Shown here: positions 1,444-16,166 of the stretch, piece by piece
Layout of the letters: every line of letters begins with the position of its first letter
Position numbering within the stretch: position 1 is the stretch's first letter
Source of the DNA: a virus
Strand: one strand, 5' to 3'
Length of the DNA: 36,009 nucleotides
Virus record (IMG/VR): IMGVR_UViG_3300025418_001023
Coordinates: 1-36,009 of that record
The notes under the pieces: generated by a model
Database searches by the model: none
Seen by the model: the letters and a program-made list of their open reading frames with translations, nothing else
What the model was told of the DNA's origin: nothing
Position numbers and translations under genes: made by a program

Positions 1444-4400
1444 TTATAACTCCGCGCTAAAGCCAATATAGGCATTTGTTGAATTATTACCGATTGGTCC
1501 ATAAGGACGATATTGAGTAAAACCTGTTCCCGTGAGTTTTACTGGCACTACATTCAATGAACCGTTACCCATTGTGGCAGCGGAAATAGCGATTACAGTT
1601 CCATCATCTGCGGTCACTGCTAGGTTTGCATAATCAACAGCCGTTGGAGTAATTCGTAGCGAAACGGGTACAGATATATTTGTCACGATTTGAGTCGTAC
1701 TGGTTGCGCTTCCCCACGGAGCGATATATCCGTAAGCATAAGCAGGGTTTGTATTACGGTAATAGTACCTCTGGCAAGCGGCTAACTCCCCCTGAAGTGT
1801 TCCAGTAGCAGTTGTGAATGGTGTTGCCACGCTACCTGCTTCGGCCTGAACGCCCCAAAGGTCAATGTTTACACCAGTTCCGCTATATCCAAAGAATATT
1901 GATAAGCAACTACCAGCACCAATAGTTTTGCCACTTATTGACGGCAAAGTAATTGTCAATGAATATCTTGCCCACGATGTAGTAAGAGAAACATTGCCAG
2001 CGACATTTGTTACTTGACTACTTCCGCCAGTTCCAAAAATTTGATTTACTTGTAAGCCCATTGATATTGCACTTGATGCTTTTGCCCAAAATGAAATAGT
2101 CATAGTCTGGCCAGCAAAAGTACGAACATCCTCAATTCTCTGCTCAACCTGAGTCTGAGTATTGGTTGCAGACATTCGCAGGAAATATGCGCTTTCGTAC
2201 CCTGCTACTGGGGCAGTGCCAGCAGTGAAGGCTTGTTGGGAAATAGTTGTAGTTCCGCTATAACCGTAAGTTGCCCAACGGTCTGCTGTATAAACAAACG
2301 ATGCGCCAACGCTAAAACTTGTGCCTCTCTGCCAGATGCTAAAGTCACCGTTCAGAATCTTATTACGGCCCGCAACAAAAGTTGGGCCAGACCAAGCAAC
2401 ACCAGTTGCGCTAGAAGAGTTTGCAACGAGTGTGCTGCCATCGGCTCCCACCGGAAGGTTTGTAACCGAACCAGATCCTGTACCGACCACGAGGTCAGCC
2501 TTAGCTGTCACGGTAGCTATTGGGATGGCGTTAGCTACGGCAAAGTTGTTTGGAGAAGCTACGACGGCTGAATCTCCGGCCACCAAAGCTGTTAAACCGG
2601 TGATAGAAGTGCCCGTAGAAGCCGTGTAATCGGTTCCTCGGACCAATCGAACGCCGTTTATGTATACTTCTTCGGCTCCGACCGTGTAGGTCAAGCTGGT
2701 CGAGAAGGAATCTGTACCAGAAAGGCTGGTTTCTCCACCTGAAGCGGTATAACGCCAGGTCTGAACGCTTACAGTTCCGGAAGGTCCAGTAGCACCAGTC
2801 GCGCCGGTTGCACCAGTAGGTCCAGTAGCTCCGACCGGTCCAGTAGCTCCGACGGGTCCAGTAGCACCAGTGGCACCAACTGCTCCATTCGAGCCAGTAG
2901 CTCCGGTTCCACCTGTTCCACCGGTTCCGCCTTGTGGTCCAGTAGCACCCGTTGGTCCGGTTGGACCAGTAGCTCCAACTGCACCGTTTGAGCCAGCGGC
3001 TCCGGTTCCACCAGTGCCTCCAGTGCCTCCAGTTACGCCTGTTGGACCAGTAGGTCCTGTCGCGCCTGTTGCACCAACTGCACCATTAGAACCAGCAGCA
3101 CCAGTTCCTCCGGTACCTCCGTTTGCACCTGTAACACCAGTTGGACCAGTAGGTCCGGTAGCTCCTGTCGCGCCGACAGCGCCGTTCGATCCGGCAGCTC
3201 CTGCGGCACCGGTTCCACCGGTACCACCAGTTCCACCTTGAGGTCCAGTTGGACCTGTAACACCAGTCGGTCCGGTTGCGCCAGTTGCGCCGACAGATCC
3301 GTTTGTTCCGTTAGCTCCTGCGGGACCAGTAACACCAGTTGCACCAGTTGGACCAACAGGACCAGTGGCTCCGACAGGACCTGTAGCTCCAGTTGCACCA
3401 ACGGCACCGGCAGCACCAGTTCCTCCAATTGCTCCAGTGGCTCCTGTAGCTCCAGTGGCTCCAACAGGACCTGTAGCGCCGGTGGCACCTGGTACGCCAG
3501 TTGGACCAACGCCGCCAGTTTGAGCGAAAGTGATTGAGTCAGTTCCGATGATGATGTAACCGTTGGTTCCAGTTCCGACGTTATTTTGAATCCAGTTTGT
3601 GCCAGATTGAGTTAAACCTGAAACGACATAGAGATAGTCGCCGTATTCAACTTCGCCAGCAATGGAATTGTTGTAATCGGTTGTACGAGTCAAAATGTAT
3701 GGACGACCCGCAGGGTTGTTCTTTCCTGCATCGGTAACAATATAAATACCGTTTTGTGTTGCAGTGGTCTGGTTTTTAACTAAAACACGATCATTTACCG
3801 CAACGTTTACGCCGTCAATTGTTGCAATTCCGTTTGATGAACCAGTAAGTGTTGCACCAATTCCATAGCCACCGCCCGCATCGGCAGATCCAGCGGTATA
3901 AGTAGCAGAAAGATTTGCAGTTGTACCAACGCGAGCAGAAGCGTGAGCGTTATTTGATGCTAATGGACCGGTGGCTCCGGTTGCACCTGTTGGACCGGTA
4001 GCTCCGGTAGCACCAGTGGCTCCAGTCGCTCCGGAAACGCCGTTTGATCCGGCAGGACCTGTGGCTCCAGTCGCTCCGGTTGGACCAGTCTGCCCGATTG
4101 GACCGGTTGCTCCAGTTTGACCAATACCTGTGGCTCCGGTTGATCCGGTAGCACCTGTTGGACCAGTGGCTCCGATTGGACCTGTAGGTCCAGTTGCTCC
4201 TGTTGCACCTTGAGGTCCTGTAGCTCCAACTGGACCTGTAGCACCAATTCCACCAGTAGCACCAATTCCACCAGTAGCACCAATTCCACCAGTAGCACCG
4301 GTTCCGCCGGTTGCACCCGTGCCACCAGTTCCTCCAGTGCCGCCGGTTCCTCCGGTAGCACCGACTGGACCTGTTGGTCCTGTAGGTCCTGTAGCTCCAG

Positions 4401-4623
4401 GGGTTAATGAGATTGTTGCAATTGTTGTATCAACTGCATCTAAACGAGCTCTGACGCTTGCCTTTGTTCCCTTAGGGAGTACTCCCAGCTCAGTTTCGAT
4501 AGCATGAATCGCATCATTTGCGTTAGCATGCTGAGTGTGATGGGGAACCGTTGCGGAGTCAAGGGTATCCGTTGCCTGTGGATCGACAAATGAATCGATG
4601 CCGTTAGGATACGAAGATGTCAC
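1444..4623 (-). CDS. Large collagen-like virion fibre (1059 aa)
   Basis: Residues 1-74 form an anchor domain ([28 protein letters not shown]) common in fibres of actinobacterial and aquatic phages. Residues about 75-220 and 371-614 are Gly-X-Y collagen repeats rich in GATGPTG and GPVGATG. A beta domain with an NDRVLVKNQ motif (about 221-370) separates them. A short beta domain follows (about 615-690), then a receptor-binding-type domain from about 750 to the end, shared with the 346-aa protein. The product is expected to be a long trimer with triple-helical shafts. The gene lies after the capsid gene and a glycosyltransferase rather than in the tail cluster. ATG at 4623 has AAGGAG upstream. 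The repetitive shaft invites length variation. Confidence 0.9.
4241..4294. repeat. Three perfect tandem 18-bp repeats in the collagen shaft
   Basis: The unit gcaccaattccaccagta occurs three times without mismatch at 4241-4258, 4259-4276 and 4277-4294. Read on the minus strand it encodes repeated Gly-Ile-Gly-Ala-Thr-Gly units. Identity at the DNA level, in a region where codon choice otherwise varies, suggests recent slippage or unequal exchange that changes shaft length in steps of six residues. Confidence 0.9.
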
Positions 4624-9819: not shown

Positions 9820-11389
9820 TTTTCCCCTCCAAGTCATAAAGGTTAAAGGCAGCTGGTAGGAAATCTCCTTGACCAAACCACCACGTTGCGCGTTCGAGTG
9901 CCATGACAGAAGCGACTGCTAAGTCAATCCGTCGAGTGGATCCTCGTTTTTCTTTTGCCAATCGACTGCCGCGCTGGTCAACGCGAAGAGTTGCGTTACC
10001 CACGTGTCTAGCAAGTTGAGGATCTCCGTTGTGTGTGAGTTGTTTGTTAACAACCGCCTCAAAGAACCGAGTGGTTGCAGGTGTCATACGTGATGCTGTC
10101 TGCGGGAAAGTCACAACCGGCAAACCCTCGTCTTCGAGAACCTGAAAGGTTCTGGCCCAACGGTAAGGGTCGCAGGCAATTTCAACGACGTCGTAACGAC
10201 GGCACGCTGCACGGATAGCTTCTTCAACTTCCATGATCGGAACTTGCCAGTCTGCTCCGGCTTCTTCTGGTTTTTCCCAGACGTTTAGCGGAACAATATG
10301 CGGTGTCTCATCGCAGGTGACCGCGACAATTACCGTGCAGTCTCCGTTGAATGATCCGTCAAATCCAAGAACGATTTTTGTATTTTCTTCGAGGCCAAGT
10401 GGAGAAGCGCAAGCGTCCCAAGAGCCATGAGGCAACCAAGTATCAGACGTCGACGTCCAAACATTTAATCTCTTTGTCTTGAATTCAGCTTCTGGGGTCT
10501 GCAGTACCGCAGAGGCGAAATCATCTTCAGCAACAATGTCATTAAAACCTGGGTTTGCAGTTTCCCAAGCTAGTTTGTCCCGATAATCAAGATCAGGATT
10601 TGCTTCCCACCAAGCAAAGTAAAAGCTTGGGTCAACAACTTCTCCGCTCGCTACGCGCTTTCCGTATTCGTAGAGCTGGTAGCACAGCGAATCTTTTCCG
10701 CTGGAATCAACCTTGACCCCTGCGGTTGTAATAGCTACAAGCAATGGTTCTTTACGAGCACCCATTGCCAAAGACATAACGTCAAAAAGTTCACGGTTTG
10801 GCTGAGCGTGAAGCTCATCAAAAGCCACGAAGGTCGGTGATAAACCTTCCTTTGTGAAGGCTTCTGCCGAAAGAGCCCGATAGACTGAACCAGTCTTTGG
10901 ATTGTAAATAGCGTCTCTATATACATCGAGAATCTCTGATAATTCGGGCTGCATTTCGACCATGCGCTTGGCAGTGCCGAACACGATTTTTGCTTGTTCT
11001 TTTTCTGCTGCGCACGAATAGGTTTCCCCACCTGTTGGACCCAGGACCAAGTGCTCAAGGGCTAGCGCCGACAACCAAGCGGACTTGCCATTCTTACGAG
11101 GCAAGCCGATCAGCGCGCGCTTATGCTTGAGCGAACCGTCAGGTCGTTCTGCAAATAATCCTCTTGTTAGCTCCGACTGCCAACCGCGAAATACCAGCGG
11201 TTCACCAGCAGCTCCAGCTACTGAGTCTTTTGTGATTGAGCACAAAGTCTCAGAGAAGTCAATGATGTTTTGACCGCGACTTCGCTTAAGCTCATCAGCA
11301 CTGACCGGAGATACGTATCTCGGCGGCCAGCCTTTAATTTGTTTTGCGTTCGTTCCTCTTTTGGAGGAGTTGGTCGATTGCGCTGACAC
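9776..11389 (-). CDS. terL: Terminase large subunit (537 aa)
   Basis: ATP-driven DNA packaging motor and headful/cos nuclease. Walker A-like GLPRKNGKS (residues 95-103), Walker B with catalytic acid VAFDELHA (Asp191-Glu192), coupling motif AITTAG (about 219-224), and nuclease acidic residues in LGFDGSFNGD (Asp344), CDPYRW and RRIDLAVASVMA. Length fits HK97-type Terminase_1 enzymes. The start is GTG at 11389 behind AGAGGTGAAAC, overlapping the small subunit by 56 bases, which suggests coupled translation. The lack of any frame break indicates a functional motor. Confidence 0.95.
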   Translation of the reverse strand: MSAQSTNSSKRGTNAKQIKGWPPRYVSPVSADELKRSRGQNIIDFSETLCSITKDSVAGAAGEPLVFRGWQSELTRGLFAERPDGSLKHKRALIGLPRKNGKSAWLSALALEHLVLGPTGGETYSCAAEKEQAKIVFGTAKRMVEMQPELSEILDVYRDAIYNPKTGSVYRALSAEAFTKEGLSPTFVAFDELHAQPNRELFDVMSLAMGARKEPLLVAITTAGVKVDSSGKDSLCYQLYEYGKRVASGEVVDPSFYFAWWEANPDLDYRDKLAWETANPGFNDIVAEDDFASAVLQTPEAEFKTKRLNVWTSTSDTWLPHGSWDACASPLGLEENTKIVLGFDGSFNGDCTVIVAVTCDETPHIVPLNVWEKPEEAGADWQVPIMEVEEAIRAACRRYDVVEIACDPYRWARTFQVLEDEGLPVVTFPQTASRMTPATTRFFEAVVNKQLTHNGDPQLARHVGNATLRVDQRGSRLAKEKRGSTRRIDLAVASVMALERATWWFGQGDFLPAAFNLYDLEGKNEIPTNLGFDDDYR

Positions 11390-11798
11390 GTTTCACCTCT
11401 GCTACCCCTAGTCGCGAGCGTGACACCGGATCAAACCCAAGCGAAGCTAGGGCGTCGGTGAATGCTTTGTTAATCTGTACGTAAGCTCGACCATCAGCCG
11501 AGTCCAGCGTTGCCATGTACTTGGTCCTGGCGGCGGTTACCGCGTCGGCAAGTTTAGCTGTGTTCTCGATTGCGGCCATGTCCGAATGCGGCGACAACCA
11601 GCCGATGGCGTTGTCCCAGATTCGATTCCAAAAAATCTTACCATCCTCACCAAGCATTGCTGGTGGCTCTGGAGTTTTGTCCGCTGCTGGCAGCAAGACG
11701 ATGTTCTCAAGTTCCTTCAAGCGACGGCCTCCACTATCAAGCCCTGGCGATCGCCCTGTAGCTCTTTTGATTTCCGCCGGTTTCGGTGGACGTCCCAT
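11334..11798 (-). CDS. terS: Terminase small subunit, P27-like (154 aa)
   Basis: DNA-recognition subunit of the packaging terminase. The N-terminus GRPPKPAEIKRATGRSPG and the later PAMLGEDGKIFWNRIWDNA are hallmarks of the P27/phage_terS family of actinobacteriophages. The C-terminal half is helical and ends in a basic tail that probably contacts the large subunit. ATG at 11798 is chosen because AAGGGGGATTTGAG precedes it; a start nine codons upstream would lack a ribosome site. It is preceded by an HNH gene, the usual partner at the packaging end. Confidence 0.88.
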   Translation of the reverse strand: MGRPPKPAEIKRATGRSPGLDSGGRRLKELENIVLLPAADKTPEPPAMLGEDGKIFWNRIWDNAIGWLSPHSDMAAIENTAKLADAVTAARTKYMATLDSADGRAYVQINKAFTDALASLGFDPVSRSRLGVAEVKRVSAIDQLLQKRNERKTN

Positions 11799-11942
11799 CT
11801 CAAATCCCCCTTGGTCCAAGTCCATTTCGTAATTTTGAGCGTGCGCGTAAAAGACGGAGGCGAGGGGTCATGAGCGATTTTCTAGGAAAATTGACCAGGC
11901 TGGGGCCTTATTTTGTTATTTATATGATAGTGCCTGATGTTT
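11799..11942. other. Gap between HNH and terS: candidate cos/packaging region
   Basis: No convincing gene lies in this 144-base gap. It holds the terS ribosome site, a GC-rich tract (gacggaggcgaggggtcatg) at 11853-11872, and an imperfect palindrome attttctaggaaaat centred near 11885. In HK97-like actinobacteriophages with an HNH-terS-terL order the cohesive end usually lies just here. That is family knowledge; the exact nick sites cannot be read from sequence. A short plus-strand frame in the gap is judged spurious. Confidence 0.35.
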
Positions 11943-12266
11943 TCACTTGTCTTGCTTGCGACTGTTGCATGATCTGCAGCAGGCTCTTAAATTAGCTGGG
12001 TCTAGACCTAGCGCCCTATCCTTCGAAATTGCTATGACATGATCTACAGTTGCATCAGCGCCAGCTAGTCGCTTCTCACATATGTAACATGTCCAGTTGT
12101 CTCGCTCTAATACTGTGCGTCGTATGGCCTGCCATCGACTACCGTACCCACGCTCCGTAGTATTTCTCTTTGGTCGTGGTGGATGAGCGATTAAATAATT
12201 ATTAGCGCAGCGATCGCATCGTGTATTCGGTCCAGGTAGACCGCAGTCAATACATGGTTTACGCAT
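11943..12266 (-). CDS. HNH endonuclease (107 aa)
   Basis: Zinc-binding Cys pairs at the N-terminus (CIDC, CDRC) are followed by the HNH core: WTCYICEKRL, VDHVIAISKD, DPANLRACCRSCNSRK. The length and position just before terS match HNH proteins that work with terminase in cos cleavage and packaging of HK97-like phages. The start overlaps the stop of the Ntn-hydrolase gene (TGATG), so it is translationally coupled. It could instead be a free-standing homing-type HNH, but the compact operon placement favours the packaging role. Confidence 0.9.
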   Translation of the reverse strand: MRKPCIDCGLPGPNTRCDRCANNYLIAHPPRPKRNTTERGYGSRWQAIRRTVLERDNWTCYICEKRLAGADATVDHVIAISKDRALGLDPANLRACCRSCNSRKQDK

Positions 12267-12832
12267 CAGCGATATTGGATAACAGTTTTAATTTCTCCGC
12301 CTGTGAATGCGTCATACTTTGCAGAGATTTCAATTGCTCGCTTAATAAGTATTTCTACATCTTTAACAATGCACAAATCAAAGCTGTCAATCAAAGCTTC
12401 TAACGCACCCATTGCAAAGCGTTCGCCAGAACCTGCAGTGTAAGTGTTATTTGTTGCTCGCTCAAACGAATAATCTTCGTCGATTCGATAACATTCACCA
12501 TTTATTGCAACAATCCAAATGTTGTCATTTTCAGCTGATGAATCACTGCGTTTAACTTCGTAACCGTGTTCATCAAATAATTTTCGCATTGCTGGAATTA
12601 AAGTTTTAGCAATGTAACGATCTGTATTTGATCGTCCAACTTTTGGCGCAACAAAATTATGTTGTAAAAGATTTATTCCACGAACTGCGCCTGCGCCTGC
12701 GATGATAACGCCGTTGTTGTTAAAAATCTTTCCGTCAGGAATGTCAATTGAAAATCCGTCTTCACCAGAGCTTTGTGAATCAGCTCCAATAATGACAAAG
12801 TTTTTGGTCTGAATGGCAGCTAGCGTTGTCAT
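12266..12832 (-). CDS. Proteasome beta-like Ntn hydrolase (188 aa)
   Basis: The mature N-terminus would be Thr after Met removal (M-TTLAAIQ). Numbering that Thr as 1, the family catalytic residues fall in place: Thr1, Asp17 in IIGADS, Lys34 in DGKIF (Lys33 in 20S beta and HslV), and the Ser in GSGERFAMGALEAL. The glycine-rich AGAGAV strand is also present. Length is close to HslV and short beta subunits. No ATPase partner is visible. It is first in the HNH-terS-terL string, downstream of a promoter candidate. Possible roles: degrading host proteins, processing virion proteins, or poisoning the host 20S proteasome by mixed assembly; none is proven. Confidence 0.82.
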   Translation of the reverse strand: MTTLAAIQTKNFVIIGADSQSSGEDGFSIDIPDGKIFNNNGVIIAGAGAVRGINLLQHNFVAPKVGRSNTDRYIAKTLIPAMRKLFDEHGYEVKRSDSSAENDNIWIVAINGECYRIDEDYSFERATNNTYTAGSGERFAMGALEALIDSFDLCIVKDVEILIKRAIEISAKYDAFTGGEIKTVIQYR

Positions 12833-12928: not shown

Positions 12929-13549
12929 ATTGTCCGGACTTTGCTTCTTCGGCGTTTCGTGCAAGCTACCTGCCAGGATGCCAAGCGTATCTTTGCCCCA
13001 AACAGCCTCGCATTTTGTACATTTAGCTGAAATTGGTCCATAAATGTCCATGTTGACAATAATGGAGTTTTTTTGGCCACAATGCGGACAAAAGCCTTTA
13101 ATTCGACGCGGTTTATCCTTCCAGGTCAGTTTTAGCTCCACCTGGTTGCGAAAGTCATGAACCCGATCTGAAATGTGCTCAACGAGCTCATCGGTTCCGG
13201 TTACTAGCAGGTTTGGTAGCTGATAAAAGTTCTCCCGGATGTCCGAGAACACGTTTCCGCCCGCCATCAGGCTTAAATTGACGCTCATTTGCGCCGCGAG
13301 TACCAACAGTCCCAACATGTCATCGCCAATGGGTGCTCTAGAACTGGCGAGGATTGATTTAGAGACACTTTCTCCTTCAGGGCCAGACGTAGCCTCATAA
13401 ATCTCATCATAGAGCTGTTCTAGCAGTCCTGGATGCTTAGAAACGTGTGTCTTACCGTTATCCATAGATTCCCGGTGTTCGTAGTACCGGGCAAGGTGCG
13501 AAACGTCGTCAATCAGACGCTCCATCAACTCAGAACGGGATCGTGGCAT
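12920..13549 (-). CDS. Hypothetical protein with C-terminal zinc ribbon (209 aa)
   Basis: ATG at 13549 follows AAGGAGAACCGAAAA and is preferred to starts further upstream that lie inside the previous gene without ribosome sites. The N-terminal 130 residues are mostly helical and unrecognised, and include a hydrophobic patch (MLGLLVLAAQMSVNLSLMAG) that looks like a buried helix. The C-terminus carries CPHCGQKN...CTKCEAVWG, a four-Cys zinc ribbon. It follows a second zinc-ribbon gene and precedes the packaging operon. Nucleic-acid binding is plausible but unproven. Confidence 0.75.
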   Translation of the reverse strand: MPRSRSELMERLIDDVSHLARYYEHRESMDNGKTHVSKHPGLLEQLYDEIYEATSGPEGESVSKSILASSRAPIGDDMLGLLVLAAQMSVNLSLMAGGNVFSDIRENFYQLPNLLVTGTDELVEHISDRVHDFRNQVELKLTWKDKPRRIKGFCPHCGQKNSIIVNMDIYGPISAKCTKCEAVWGKDTLGILAGSLHETPKKQSPDNLT

Positions 13550-13838
13550 TTTTCGGTTCTCCTTTGCAGTCATGAAGCGAGACGACCAGGGGTTGTGGAT
13601 CGTTGATGGTTTTTTTAATTGTCTCGGGAAGTCGTAGCTTTGCTTCAGCATTTCCATACCGAGTTGTGATTTGAAAACTTGACCCACCTCGTAGCAAGTT
13701 TTCAAGCTCCTCGTATTTCGACATCAGTAGCCGATTCAGCCTGACCCGGAACCCGCCGGCATGACAGTCCCAGACAGTGGCGCCGCAGCGAGTGCAGACC
13801 GCCTCAACTAGCGCCGTTGTCTTGAATGGCTCTGACAT
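13530..13838 (-). CDS. Zinc-ribbon-like protein (102 aa)
   Basis: CTRCGATVWDCH near the N-terminus plus a late VSLHDC give a possible Cys4/His zinc site. Similar short proteins are common in replication regions of actinobacteriophages (recollection). ATG at 13838 is preceded by GGAGGTTTTT. Its ribosome site lies within the CCTCCGGGAGGAAC sequence that also carries an outlying copy of the iteron-like repeat. It overlaps the next gene by 20 bases. DNA binding is a guess from the zinc site. Confidence 0.75.
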   Translation of the reverse strand: MSEPFKTTALVEAVCTRCGATVWDCHAGGFRVRLNRLLMSKYEELENLLRGGSSFQITTRYGNAEAKLRLPETIKKTINDPQPLVVSLHDCKGEPKNATIPF

Positions 13839-13847
13839 AAAAACCTC

Positions 13848-14021
13848 CGGGAGGAACTTTTGGATTTTTAGCTACTTCGGTTGTTGTCTGAATGTTTTTG
13901 GTTGCTCCCACTCCGTTCCTCCCCCTAGGGAGGAACGGGAGCAGCGGGAGTAACCTAAAACTCACTATTCAGAGGTTGCTCCCGGGAGGAACTGGGAGTA
14001 ACTGGGAGCAGCGGGAGCAAC
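13848..14021. repeat. Iteron-like cluster of GGGAGnArC 9-mers
   Basis: Direct copies: 13928-13936, 13937-13945 and 13946-13954 are exactly adjacent (GGGAGGAAC, GGGAGCAGC, GGGAGTAAC). A second group lies at 13984-13992, 13994-14002, 14004-14012 and 14013-14021, with an outlier at 13848-13856. Inverted copies at 13901-13909, 13915-13923 and 13975-13983 (GTTGCTCCC or GTTCCTCCC) let each group fold into a hairpin. The second group fits a G3-N7-G3-N7-G3-N6-G3 quadruplex pattern. It straddles the 3' end of the prim-pol/helicase gene and the gap after it. Best guess: replication origin iterons. Confidence 0.7.
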
Positions 14022-16166
14022 CCCCCAGTCCGGCTGGCTAAAACCGGCCGAAAAGCTGTCCGAAAGTGGGTCCAATTTGGCGTCGTAGAGCTTTACGAAC
14101 CCGATGCGACGAGCGGAATTACGCGATTCGCCGTCCCGGGATTCGGTTAAAAATAGCTCTTCAACCAGGATGTCGATAGCTAAACCGACAGCCTGATCTT
14201 TGCCTTTGACAGCCTTAATGACCTCGTTTCGGGACGGTGCCTCATCTCCTGACCAGTCATGCACAAATCGAGAAACACGCTCCATCAGCACAGTCGGACG
14301 CATCCGGCCGTCGCTAGACATAGACGGCATGTCAACGCTCCATTTGGTCATGGTGGTGTCCTGGGAGTCCAAAACGAACGTTCCAGCGTGCTTTCCTGGC
14401 GAAACCGATCGAAGTCCACCATTACGGTCTTTTTCGATGGTCAGGCTGATCTTTCCGAGCTTTCCAGGAGCTGGAGCCATCAGCACCTCCGCCGAGAGAT
14501 AGGTCCCGTCAATGGCACGCTTCTTGGCAGTACCGCCAATGGCGTAGCCTGACTGCCTGGCGTCAATACCCTTCGGTAAGTGGTCAATTGTGATGACGCA
14601 GGCGCCAATTGTGTGAGCAAGTGGCTTGCAGACAGCTCGGAGTGCCTTGGTGATGTCATCGTTGTCAGTGGACTTCAGTCCCAACATAGGGACCAGCTCA
14701 CCGACGGAGTCAACGACAGCTATTTCAGGTTTCCACTCGATCATGTCATGGATGAAGAGCCGAAGACCGTCGATGTCCTCAGGTTCTGCAATCTTGAACA
14801 TGTTCGGGTTGGCAATGCAGGCTATCGGAGCACCAAGGGCGACAAGACGCATAGCTATTTCAGCCGATCCGTTGTGGTCGATATCAAGGTACACGGCACG
14901 GCGGTTCTGGTGCAGCGCCTCTACGACCGCGCACATCGCGAGCCACGATTTCGCTGTTTCAGGGTCGCCGAAGATTCCGTTGATTCTGCCGTTGTAGAAC
15001 AAGGCAGTACCATCGGAACGTTTGACCCAAGCAGGTGGCTCGATCTCAGGTGGTGTGCCACGAAGGAGCCATTCAAGGTCGGCATAGATTGACGTCTCAA
15101 CGTCGGGTTGTTCACTGCCTGGGACTGTTTTATTGTCCGGAGCTAGAAACTCTTCGACGCTGAACTCAAGACCACGTAGCTTTCCGTCGCAGTCTCGGCC
15201 ATTGCAGCGTTCTTTTGGTTGCATCTTTGCAAGGATGATCGAAATACCGCCGAGCAACATGCGCTTCCACTCGAGCTCTGCAGATGTGGTTCCACGATCT
15301 TGGCCAATAACGTCAACAAATTCGCTTGCAACACGCTGAAGCGCATATCCAACACCTTGGTGACCAACTTGGCCAAGACGCAAGAGTCCCAGCATGAGGT
15401 CTCGAACAGCGTCATGGCGTGAGCCAGATCGGCCTGAGAGCGCCTCTTCTATGTCGTATAGCTTTCTGTTCACCATTGCGCACGGCTGATCCGGTGTGCA
15501 CCATTCGGCAAAGGCAACAGCCATTTCCTCGGCGTCAGTGTCCAGGCGCTGAGTTGCCGGCGTTGCCGCTTGTCCCTTCGTAAGACCTTGGACCCAGGCA
15601 GCAGGTAGCTCTGGAAGTTGGTCTAAATGAGGACCCGCGCCGATGGTGTCTTGGTTTTCAGGTCCGATCCAACGATACGTGCGACCTTCTGGGTGCAGAG
15701 ATGGCCAAACAACCGCATAACGGTGACCTCGGTGGATGGTTTCAATGCCAGGACCAACTTGGTTTGGCCACTGAAGACCTGTCGGTACCCGGTAGAACCT
15801 AATGCCACTGATGCCATCGTCTCGCGACGTTACTCGCCAGGTTTCAGGCAGTGGACCGAATGTCGCGATGCCTTTAGCTAGCGATTCCATTCCAGACTTT
15901 TCGCCGTAGGCGTCAACGTCGATGCCCAAAATGTTTGCGGGCATGCGAAGGGCAATGTTGCCACGTCCTTTGGTTTCAATCCATTCCTGGATTTCCGATG
16001 CGTCCGGTGAAATGTCGTAAAACCGCTTGCCTGTGTAACCAGTTGGCGGATGAGATTTCTTGCCTGGCGGAAGGGGTAGGACATCTGACCATCCCAGCTT
16101 TCGATAATCCCACGCCGCTTGTGCGTAAGGACCGTCGACTGGTGTGGTCTCCTCGTCAGGCATCAT
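13965..16166 (-). CDS. Bifunctional primase/polymerase-helicase (733 aa)
   Basis: Main replication protein. Residues about 12-180 form an archaeo-eukaryotic-type prim-pol domain, with the metal pair in LGIDVDAYGE (Asp83, Asp85) and an IRFYRVP...HRGHRYAVVWPS region. Residues about 390-600 form a RepA/RecA-like AAA+ helicase: Walker A GIFGDPETAKSW (around Lys406), Walker B EIAVVDSVGEL, then TIDHLPKG and a GGTAKK motif. The tail from about 630 is a winged-helix-like region. ATGATG start with AAGGGGATTAG before it. The last codons (YSQFLPGATSE) are written in the iteron-like repeats. Confidence 0.9.
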   Translation of the reverse strand: MMPDEETTPVDGPYAQAAWDYRKLGWSDVLPLPPGKKSHPPTGYTGKRFYDISPDASEIQEWIETKGRGNIALRMPANILGIDVDAYGEKSGMESLAKGIATFGPLPETWRVTSRDDGISGIRFYRVPTGLQWPNQVGPGIETIHRGHRYAVVWPSLHPEGRTYRWIGPENQDTIGAGPHLDQLPELPAAWVQGLTKGQAATPATQRLDTDAEEMAVAFAEWCTPDQPCAMVNRKLYDIEEALSGRSGSRHDAVRDLMLGLLRLGQVGHQGVGYALQRVASEFVDVIGQDRGTTSAELEWKRMLLGGISIILAKMQPKERCNGRDCDGKLRGLEFSVEEFLAPDNKTVPGSEQPDVETSIYADLEWLLRGTPPEIEPPAWVKRSDGTALFYNGRINGIFGDPETAKSWLAMCAVVEALHQNRRAVYLDIDHNGSAEIAMRLVALGAPIACIANPNMFKIAEPEDIDGLRLFIHDMIEWKPEIAVVDSVGELVPMLGLKSTDNDDITKALRAVCKPLAHTIGACVITIDHLPKGIDARQSGYAIGGTAKKRAIDGTYLSAEVLMAPAPGKLGKISLTIEKDRNGGLRSVSPGKHAGTFVLDSQDTTMTKWSVDMPSMSSDGRMRPTVLMERVSRFVHDWSGDEAPSRNEVIKAVKGKDQAVGLAIDILVEELFLTESRDGESRNSARRIGFVKLYDAKLDPLSDSFSAGFSQPDWGVAPAAPSYSQFLPGATSE

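Follow-up and report, generated by a model that had tools for sequence, protein, structure and literature searches.

A candidate replication origin of iterons and a stem-loop at the 3' end of a phage Prim-Pol/helicase gene

Origins described near prim-pol and helicase genes

The origin of the Sulfolobus plasmid pRN1 is a stem-loop of about 100 bp lying directly downstream of the gene for a prim-pol/helicase/winged-helix protein. The intact stem-loop is required, and the authors of that study propose the same type of origin for phage BIP-1 (PMC4234260). Specific binding of the pRN1 protein to its origin was undetectable in vitro (PMC4234260), a result that counts against reading the phage locus described here as an origin. 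The Streptomyces theta plasmid pWTY27 carries a predicted prim-pol gene beside a 300-bp repeat region, in which repeats of 8 bp and 7 bp, occurring in either orientation (GTGGGAAC and TTCCCAC), compose a long inverted repeat of about 105 bp; this region is needed for replication and is bound by RepA in vitro (PMC3583192). For SaPI and SCCmec Cch2, the part of PMC7581432 drawn on here describes a self-loading helicase that uses its C-terminal domain to recognise iterons situated immediately after the helicase's own gene. PMC4234260 describes the RSF1010 oriV, which brings together iterons, hairpins for single-strand initiation and a helicase of the RepA type. A C-terminal winged helix has been suggested to act as origin reader in other primase families (PMC5862659).

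The repeat array and its stem-loop

The locus compared with these systems lies in a stretch of 36,009 bases (the window), whose source record is that of an uncultured virus. Its features are:

13965-16166, minus strand: gene for a Prim-Pol/RecA-fold helicase/winged-helix replication protein of 733 aa (Pfam Prim-Pol, AAA_25, AlphaFold)
14091-14303, minus strand: its C-terminal winged-helix domain, residues 622-692 (AlphaFold, Foldseek)
13984-14021, plus strand: cluster A, four direct 9-mers at spacings of 10, 10 and 9, kept in relatives
13975-13983, minus strand: inverted 9-mer, an exact match, head-to-head against cluster A
13955-13974, no strand: AT-rich spacer between clusters A and B, 65% AT
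13928-13954, plus strand: cluster B, three exactly adjacent 9-mers (spacings 9 and 9), the 9-nt spacing being exact in close relatives
13915-13923, minus strand: inverted 9-mer forming an inner hairpin with the adjacent direct copy; the inner stem is almost invariant
13901-13909, minus strand: inverted 9-mer, an exact match, in the outer arm of the stem-loop by the stem alignment
13888-13972, minus strand: 85-bp stem-loop (imperfect palindrome) holding cluster B and the prim-pol stop codon, from folding and covariation
13858-13900, no strand: AT-rich stretch from stem-loop to lone copy, overlapping the outer stem, 67% AT
13849-13857, plus strand: lone 9-mer abutting the next gene's GGAGG, at the same place in close relatives
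13530-13838, minus strand: next gene, for a 102-aa protein with a CxxC motif (phrog_10480, E 3e-7)

The 733-aa protein matched Pfam Prim-Pol with an E of 9e-23; AAA_25, weak in the window's own protein, was found in 12 of 12 aligned relatives. Its AlphaFold model (mean pLDDT 73) shows a PrimPol region, a RecA-like core and a winged helix, and the central domain resembles DnaB, RecA and KaiC. The winged helix has an H-H-H-E-E topology at a pLDDT of about 80-90 and, when modelled alone, retrieved MarR/MepR-type winged helices in Foldseek (probability 1.00, best E 3.3e-3). Solved structures searched by sequence gave no relevant match. We propose that this gene product is the initiator and that its winged helix is a putative reader of the iterons.

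The 9-mer GGGAGNARC (GYTNCTCCC on the gene strand) has 11 exact matches in the window, and all 11 fall within the 173 bp of 13849-14021, whereas dinucleotide shuffles of the whole window (n=100) gave a mean of 1.76 and a maximum of 6. These short direct repeats are therefore clustered beyond chance (11 against 1.8 expected). Direct copies start at 13849, 13928, 13937, 13946, 13984, 13994, 14004 and 14013, and inverted copies at 13901, 13915 and 13975. An earlier, sequence-only reading of the window had reported these repeat sites, all of which are present, and had placed them across the 3' end of the prim-pol/helicase gene, which indeed ends inside the array. Its outlier copy, given as starting at 13848 and overlapping a ribosome site, in fact starts at 13849 and abuts the next gene's Shine-Dalgarno-like GGAGG (13844-13848, minus strand). 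That reading further suggested that replication and translation may compete at this point; the copy beside the ribosome site is conserved. It had also suggested a G-quadruplex: a four-run G3+N1-7 pattern is present at 13984-14015, the sole one on either strand of the window, but it is missing from 8 of 8 close relatives tested, and we rejected the element because the pattern is not conserved. The AT-rich regions that adjoin the repeats are only modestly so; the spacer between clusters A and B, AT-rich by inspection in relatives too, is a possible unwinding site. An Rfam search gave no match and a tRNA/tmRNA search found none. Comparison of the array DNA with named phages and plasmids was uninformative, as expected if the repeat units differ between phages.

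The stem-loop, which the sequence-only reading did not contain, encloses cluster B plus two inverted copies. Folded as DNA it has an energy of -28.2 kcal/mol (z -8.05; 0 of 200 shuffles), and its 80-nt core ranked first among 1592 segments across a 16-kb stretch. In an alignment of eight loci, six of them distinct in sequence, 94.6% of the cells over the 31 stem pairs were paired. The stem is held by compensatory changes: both sides had changed at 10 of the 31 pairs, a count conservative in the outermost stem, where the alignment has the window shifted by one base. None of 500 shuffles scored as high, and sliding the stem partners sharply lowered the covariation values. The outer flanks vary by lineage (TTTT/AAAA, AAAAA/TTTTT or AAGAG/CTCTT). 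When the gene-end hairpin was ranked against all segments of its locus, it came first in 8 of 14 loci and among the top three in 11 of the 14.

The phage thus shares with pRN1 a long stem-loop directly 3' of a winged-helix prim-pol gene, here of 85 bp and covarying. It differs in that pRN1 is without iterons and has an SF3 helicase, whereas the phage has iterons and an AAA_25-type helicase with a RecA/DnaB-like fold. The pWTY27 repeats resemble the C-run-ending units of the phage array, but that plasmid, by its description, has RepA (522 aa) and the prim-pol RepB as separate proteins, while in the phage PrimPol, helicase and winged helix form one protein. RSF1010 likewise divides the work among three separate proteins, of which RepC reads the iterons. 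According to the cited part of PMC7581432, the SaPI and SCCmec helicases are of the D5/DUF927 type, unlike the phage protein, and SaPIbov1 has a separate primase where the phage has PrimPol in the same protein; that part describes no iteron-armed stem-loop such as that of the phage.

Conservation, position and the winged helix among relatives

Relatives were found by scanning IMG/VR for the repeat pattern and by protein alignment. Two contigs (L004, L005), which match the window at 99.96% identity along about 9.3 kb, have the same array, and nine related contigs with 72-80% protein identity retain its layout. All relatives in which the array region was compared have cluster A, cluster B with the hairpin, and the lone copy; their individual copies show scattered single-base changes, including one in the lone copy of one close relative. 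Loss of the 9-mers in relatives that keep the protein had been named as a possible refutation of the sequence-only reading; instead, close relatives with the protein retain the array. The array is also kept independently of coding. In L009 (the contig of L076) the prim-pol gene and the array have a methyltransferase-like ORF between them, and in L075 and L077-L080 the array lies >1 kb past the prim-pol stop. Cluster A is outside the prim-pol gene in L075-L080, and in L081 the iterons, cluster A among them, are read in a different frame. Since the array persists despite an intervening ORF and a change of frame, it is the DNA element and not the protein tail that is kept. The intervening ORF, named from reading its sequence, occupies L009:4297-5459, exactly between gene and array, and the prim-pol tail of L009 is replaced.

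The three-copy pattern scan gave 65 loci, most of them without a prim-pol homologue in the DNA examined and so set aside. For a family-wide comparison we used relatives picked by protein alone, with full-length loci dereplicated at 80% identity (n=48). In 27 of the 48 loci, against 2.6 expected (binomial P 4e-22), the segment densest in short repeats fell at the 3' end of the prim-pol gene, with gene-end limits of -250 to +350 of the prim-pol stop that were set after viewing a first set of loci; in the other 21 it lay elsewhere, which counts against the origin reading. The same limits applied to a separate set from bacterial genomes gave 21 of 29 chromosomal loci against 1.8 expected, the 29 including the near-duplicates L190 and L191. 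Of 39 loci, 35 had an 8-10-mer with 3-10 copies close to the end of the gene and no more than two in the rest of the locus; this table had no matched control, and the 48- and 29-locus tests bear the statistical weight. The repeat unit differs in sequence among relatives while its position is constant, and across the family the array adjoins the 3' end of the proposed initiator gene. By inspection, distant members show direct copies, an abutting inverted copy and a hairpin with iteron arms, often with a CCCC-TA-GGGG-like centre; direct copies followed by an abutting inverted copy, as beside cluster A, also occur with other repeat sequences in L082, L162 and L166. Gene-end arrays are found in Gordonia phages TinyDot (directly after gene 57) and Reyja, in Microcystis phage MinS1 and in Verrucomicrobia phage P8625, and inspection of the gene end in the prim-pol phages Fury, Firecracker, Jflix2 and Kimchi1738 revealed no array, which also counts against an origin. 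The plasmids pKRAD02 and p-XQ-29-C have the same layout at the 3' end of a homologous ATPase gene, which counts in favour of an origin because plasmids need one.

We then compared protein identity with iteron similarity among 11 divergent AAA_25-type proteins, a small sample in which related sequences are not independent. With repeat units set by hand, iteron similarity correlated with winged-helix identity (r 0.50, P 0.001) and not with helicase identity (r 0.03, P 0.41). With units chosen automatically, where the unit picked for the window was the palindromic overlap of two copies, the correlation was 0.48 for the winged helix (P 0.001) and 0.54 for its recognition part (P 0.0004), against 0.19 for the helicase (P 0.11) and -0.08 for PrimPol (P 0.67). 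Recognition of the iterons by the winged helix would be expected to give this pattern, seen here for n=11. Two distant records, L082 and L159 (MinS1), have a common repeat unit, ACCTCGTCC, and their winged-helix recognition helices are alike.

The proposed origin and competing readings

From these comparisons we consider it likely that 13849-14021 is a replication origin of the phage, used in cis by the Prim-Pol/helicase protein encoded immediately upstream; pRN1, pWTY27 and SaPI provide experimental precedents. The iteron/origin proposal of the sequence-only reading thereby gains strong comparative support, its G-quadruplex part excepted. In such an origin, the C-terminal winged helix would bind the lone 9-mer and those of clusters A and B. 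The duplex would then be opened by loading of the protein, with the stem-loop extruded or the AT-rich flanks melted. The RecA-fold ring helicase would be loaded there, and initial primer synthesis would fall to the PrimPol domain, perhaps on the hairpin once it is exposed. GC skew was uninformative for the origin, as nearly all recognised genes are on one strand.

More tentatively, the locus may belong to a class of replicons widespread among phages and plasmids. In these, a single PrimPol-helicase-winged-helix polypeptide would have its origin where its own gene ends, the iterons would also form the arms of a hairpin on which PrimPol starts synthesis, and winged helix and iteron would co-evolve. 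If so, the origin sequence could be predicted from the protein; a readable code may connect winged-helix residues with the iteron sequence. The array would link two origin designs described separately, iterons and a stem-loop downstream of a prim-pol gene, and it provides a concrete candidate for a phage group in which we found no mapped origin, including the cultured TinyDot, Reyja and MinS1. In the literature searched, open-access with few subscription papers, we found no account of such a layout for this family of phages.

The stem-loop might instead act mainly as RNA, as a terminator, a processing signal or a translation-control structure between the replication gene and the next gene, which leads to the packaging genes. 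It is very stable in that form (-47 kcal/mol, z -6.96), its stem covaries, it lies between replication and packaging genes, and several distant hairpins have UACG/UUCG-like loops; moreover, the lone copy beside the ribosome site is conserved and can base-pair with the next gene's Shine-Dalgarno sequence. We nevertheless regard this reading as unlikely, since it leaves unexplained both cluster A, with its direct repeats at 9-11 nt spacing, and the correlation between repeat sequence and winged helix. No U-run follows the hairpin and a terminator scan of the gene strand found none; an intrinsic terminator at 13888-13972 was rejected for want of the T-run. The hairpin may serve both origin and RNA functions.

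Control and origin functions are combined in iteron plasmids, and the array, which adjoins both the initiator gene and the start of the next gene, could be an autoregulatory operator or handcuffing site that limits protein synthesis or copy number, with the origin elsewhere. This seems improbable: the array lies where the initiator gene ends and not at a promoter, a search for a sigma-70-like promoter in 13400-14400 found none, and the stem-loop and AT-rich spacers suit an origin better. We judge it similarly doubtful, and at best a slim prospect, that the array is some other cis-acting DNA site, namely a partition centromere or a packaging or recombination site. Repeat arrays can serve as centromeres or packaging sites, and the distance to a terminase gene is about 2 kb, but no partition gene was recognised among the subset of ORFs searched, and the array accompanies the prim-pol gene in many phages and, on plasmids, the gene for a homologous ATPase. 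The ends of independent contigs from relatives fall close to 11867-11879, which places a probable packaging cut about 2 kb from the array, and the array was rejected as the cut site on this ground. Finally, chance or a by-product of low-complexity coding at the protein's C-terminus is scarcely credible: cluster A does encode the disordered C-terminal tail of the prim-pol protein in the window, but the shuffles, the non-coding cluster B and the relatives that keep the array without the tail or in another frame argue against it.

Around the proposed origin, homologues of the 102-aa CxxC protein (45-56% identical) follow the array in close relatives, and this protein is possibly a replication accessory protein; similar-looking CxxC ORFs follow the array in L084, L085 and L098. 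The position 11867-11879, where two contigs of the same phage end, is a probable physical, cos-like genome end. In three separate lineages (L072, L074, L080) contigs end at or within a base of a sequence finishing in CATGAC. The site lies between an HNH gene (11943-12266) and an ORF at 11334-11825, just upstream of the large terminase gene, that is presumed to encode the small terminase. Beside the packaging genes is a gene for an HslV/proteasome-like peptidase (12266-12832, minus strand), and a long ORF at 1444-4623, also on the minus strand, has 9-base-periodic repeats throughout and is collagen-like by inspection.
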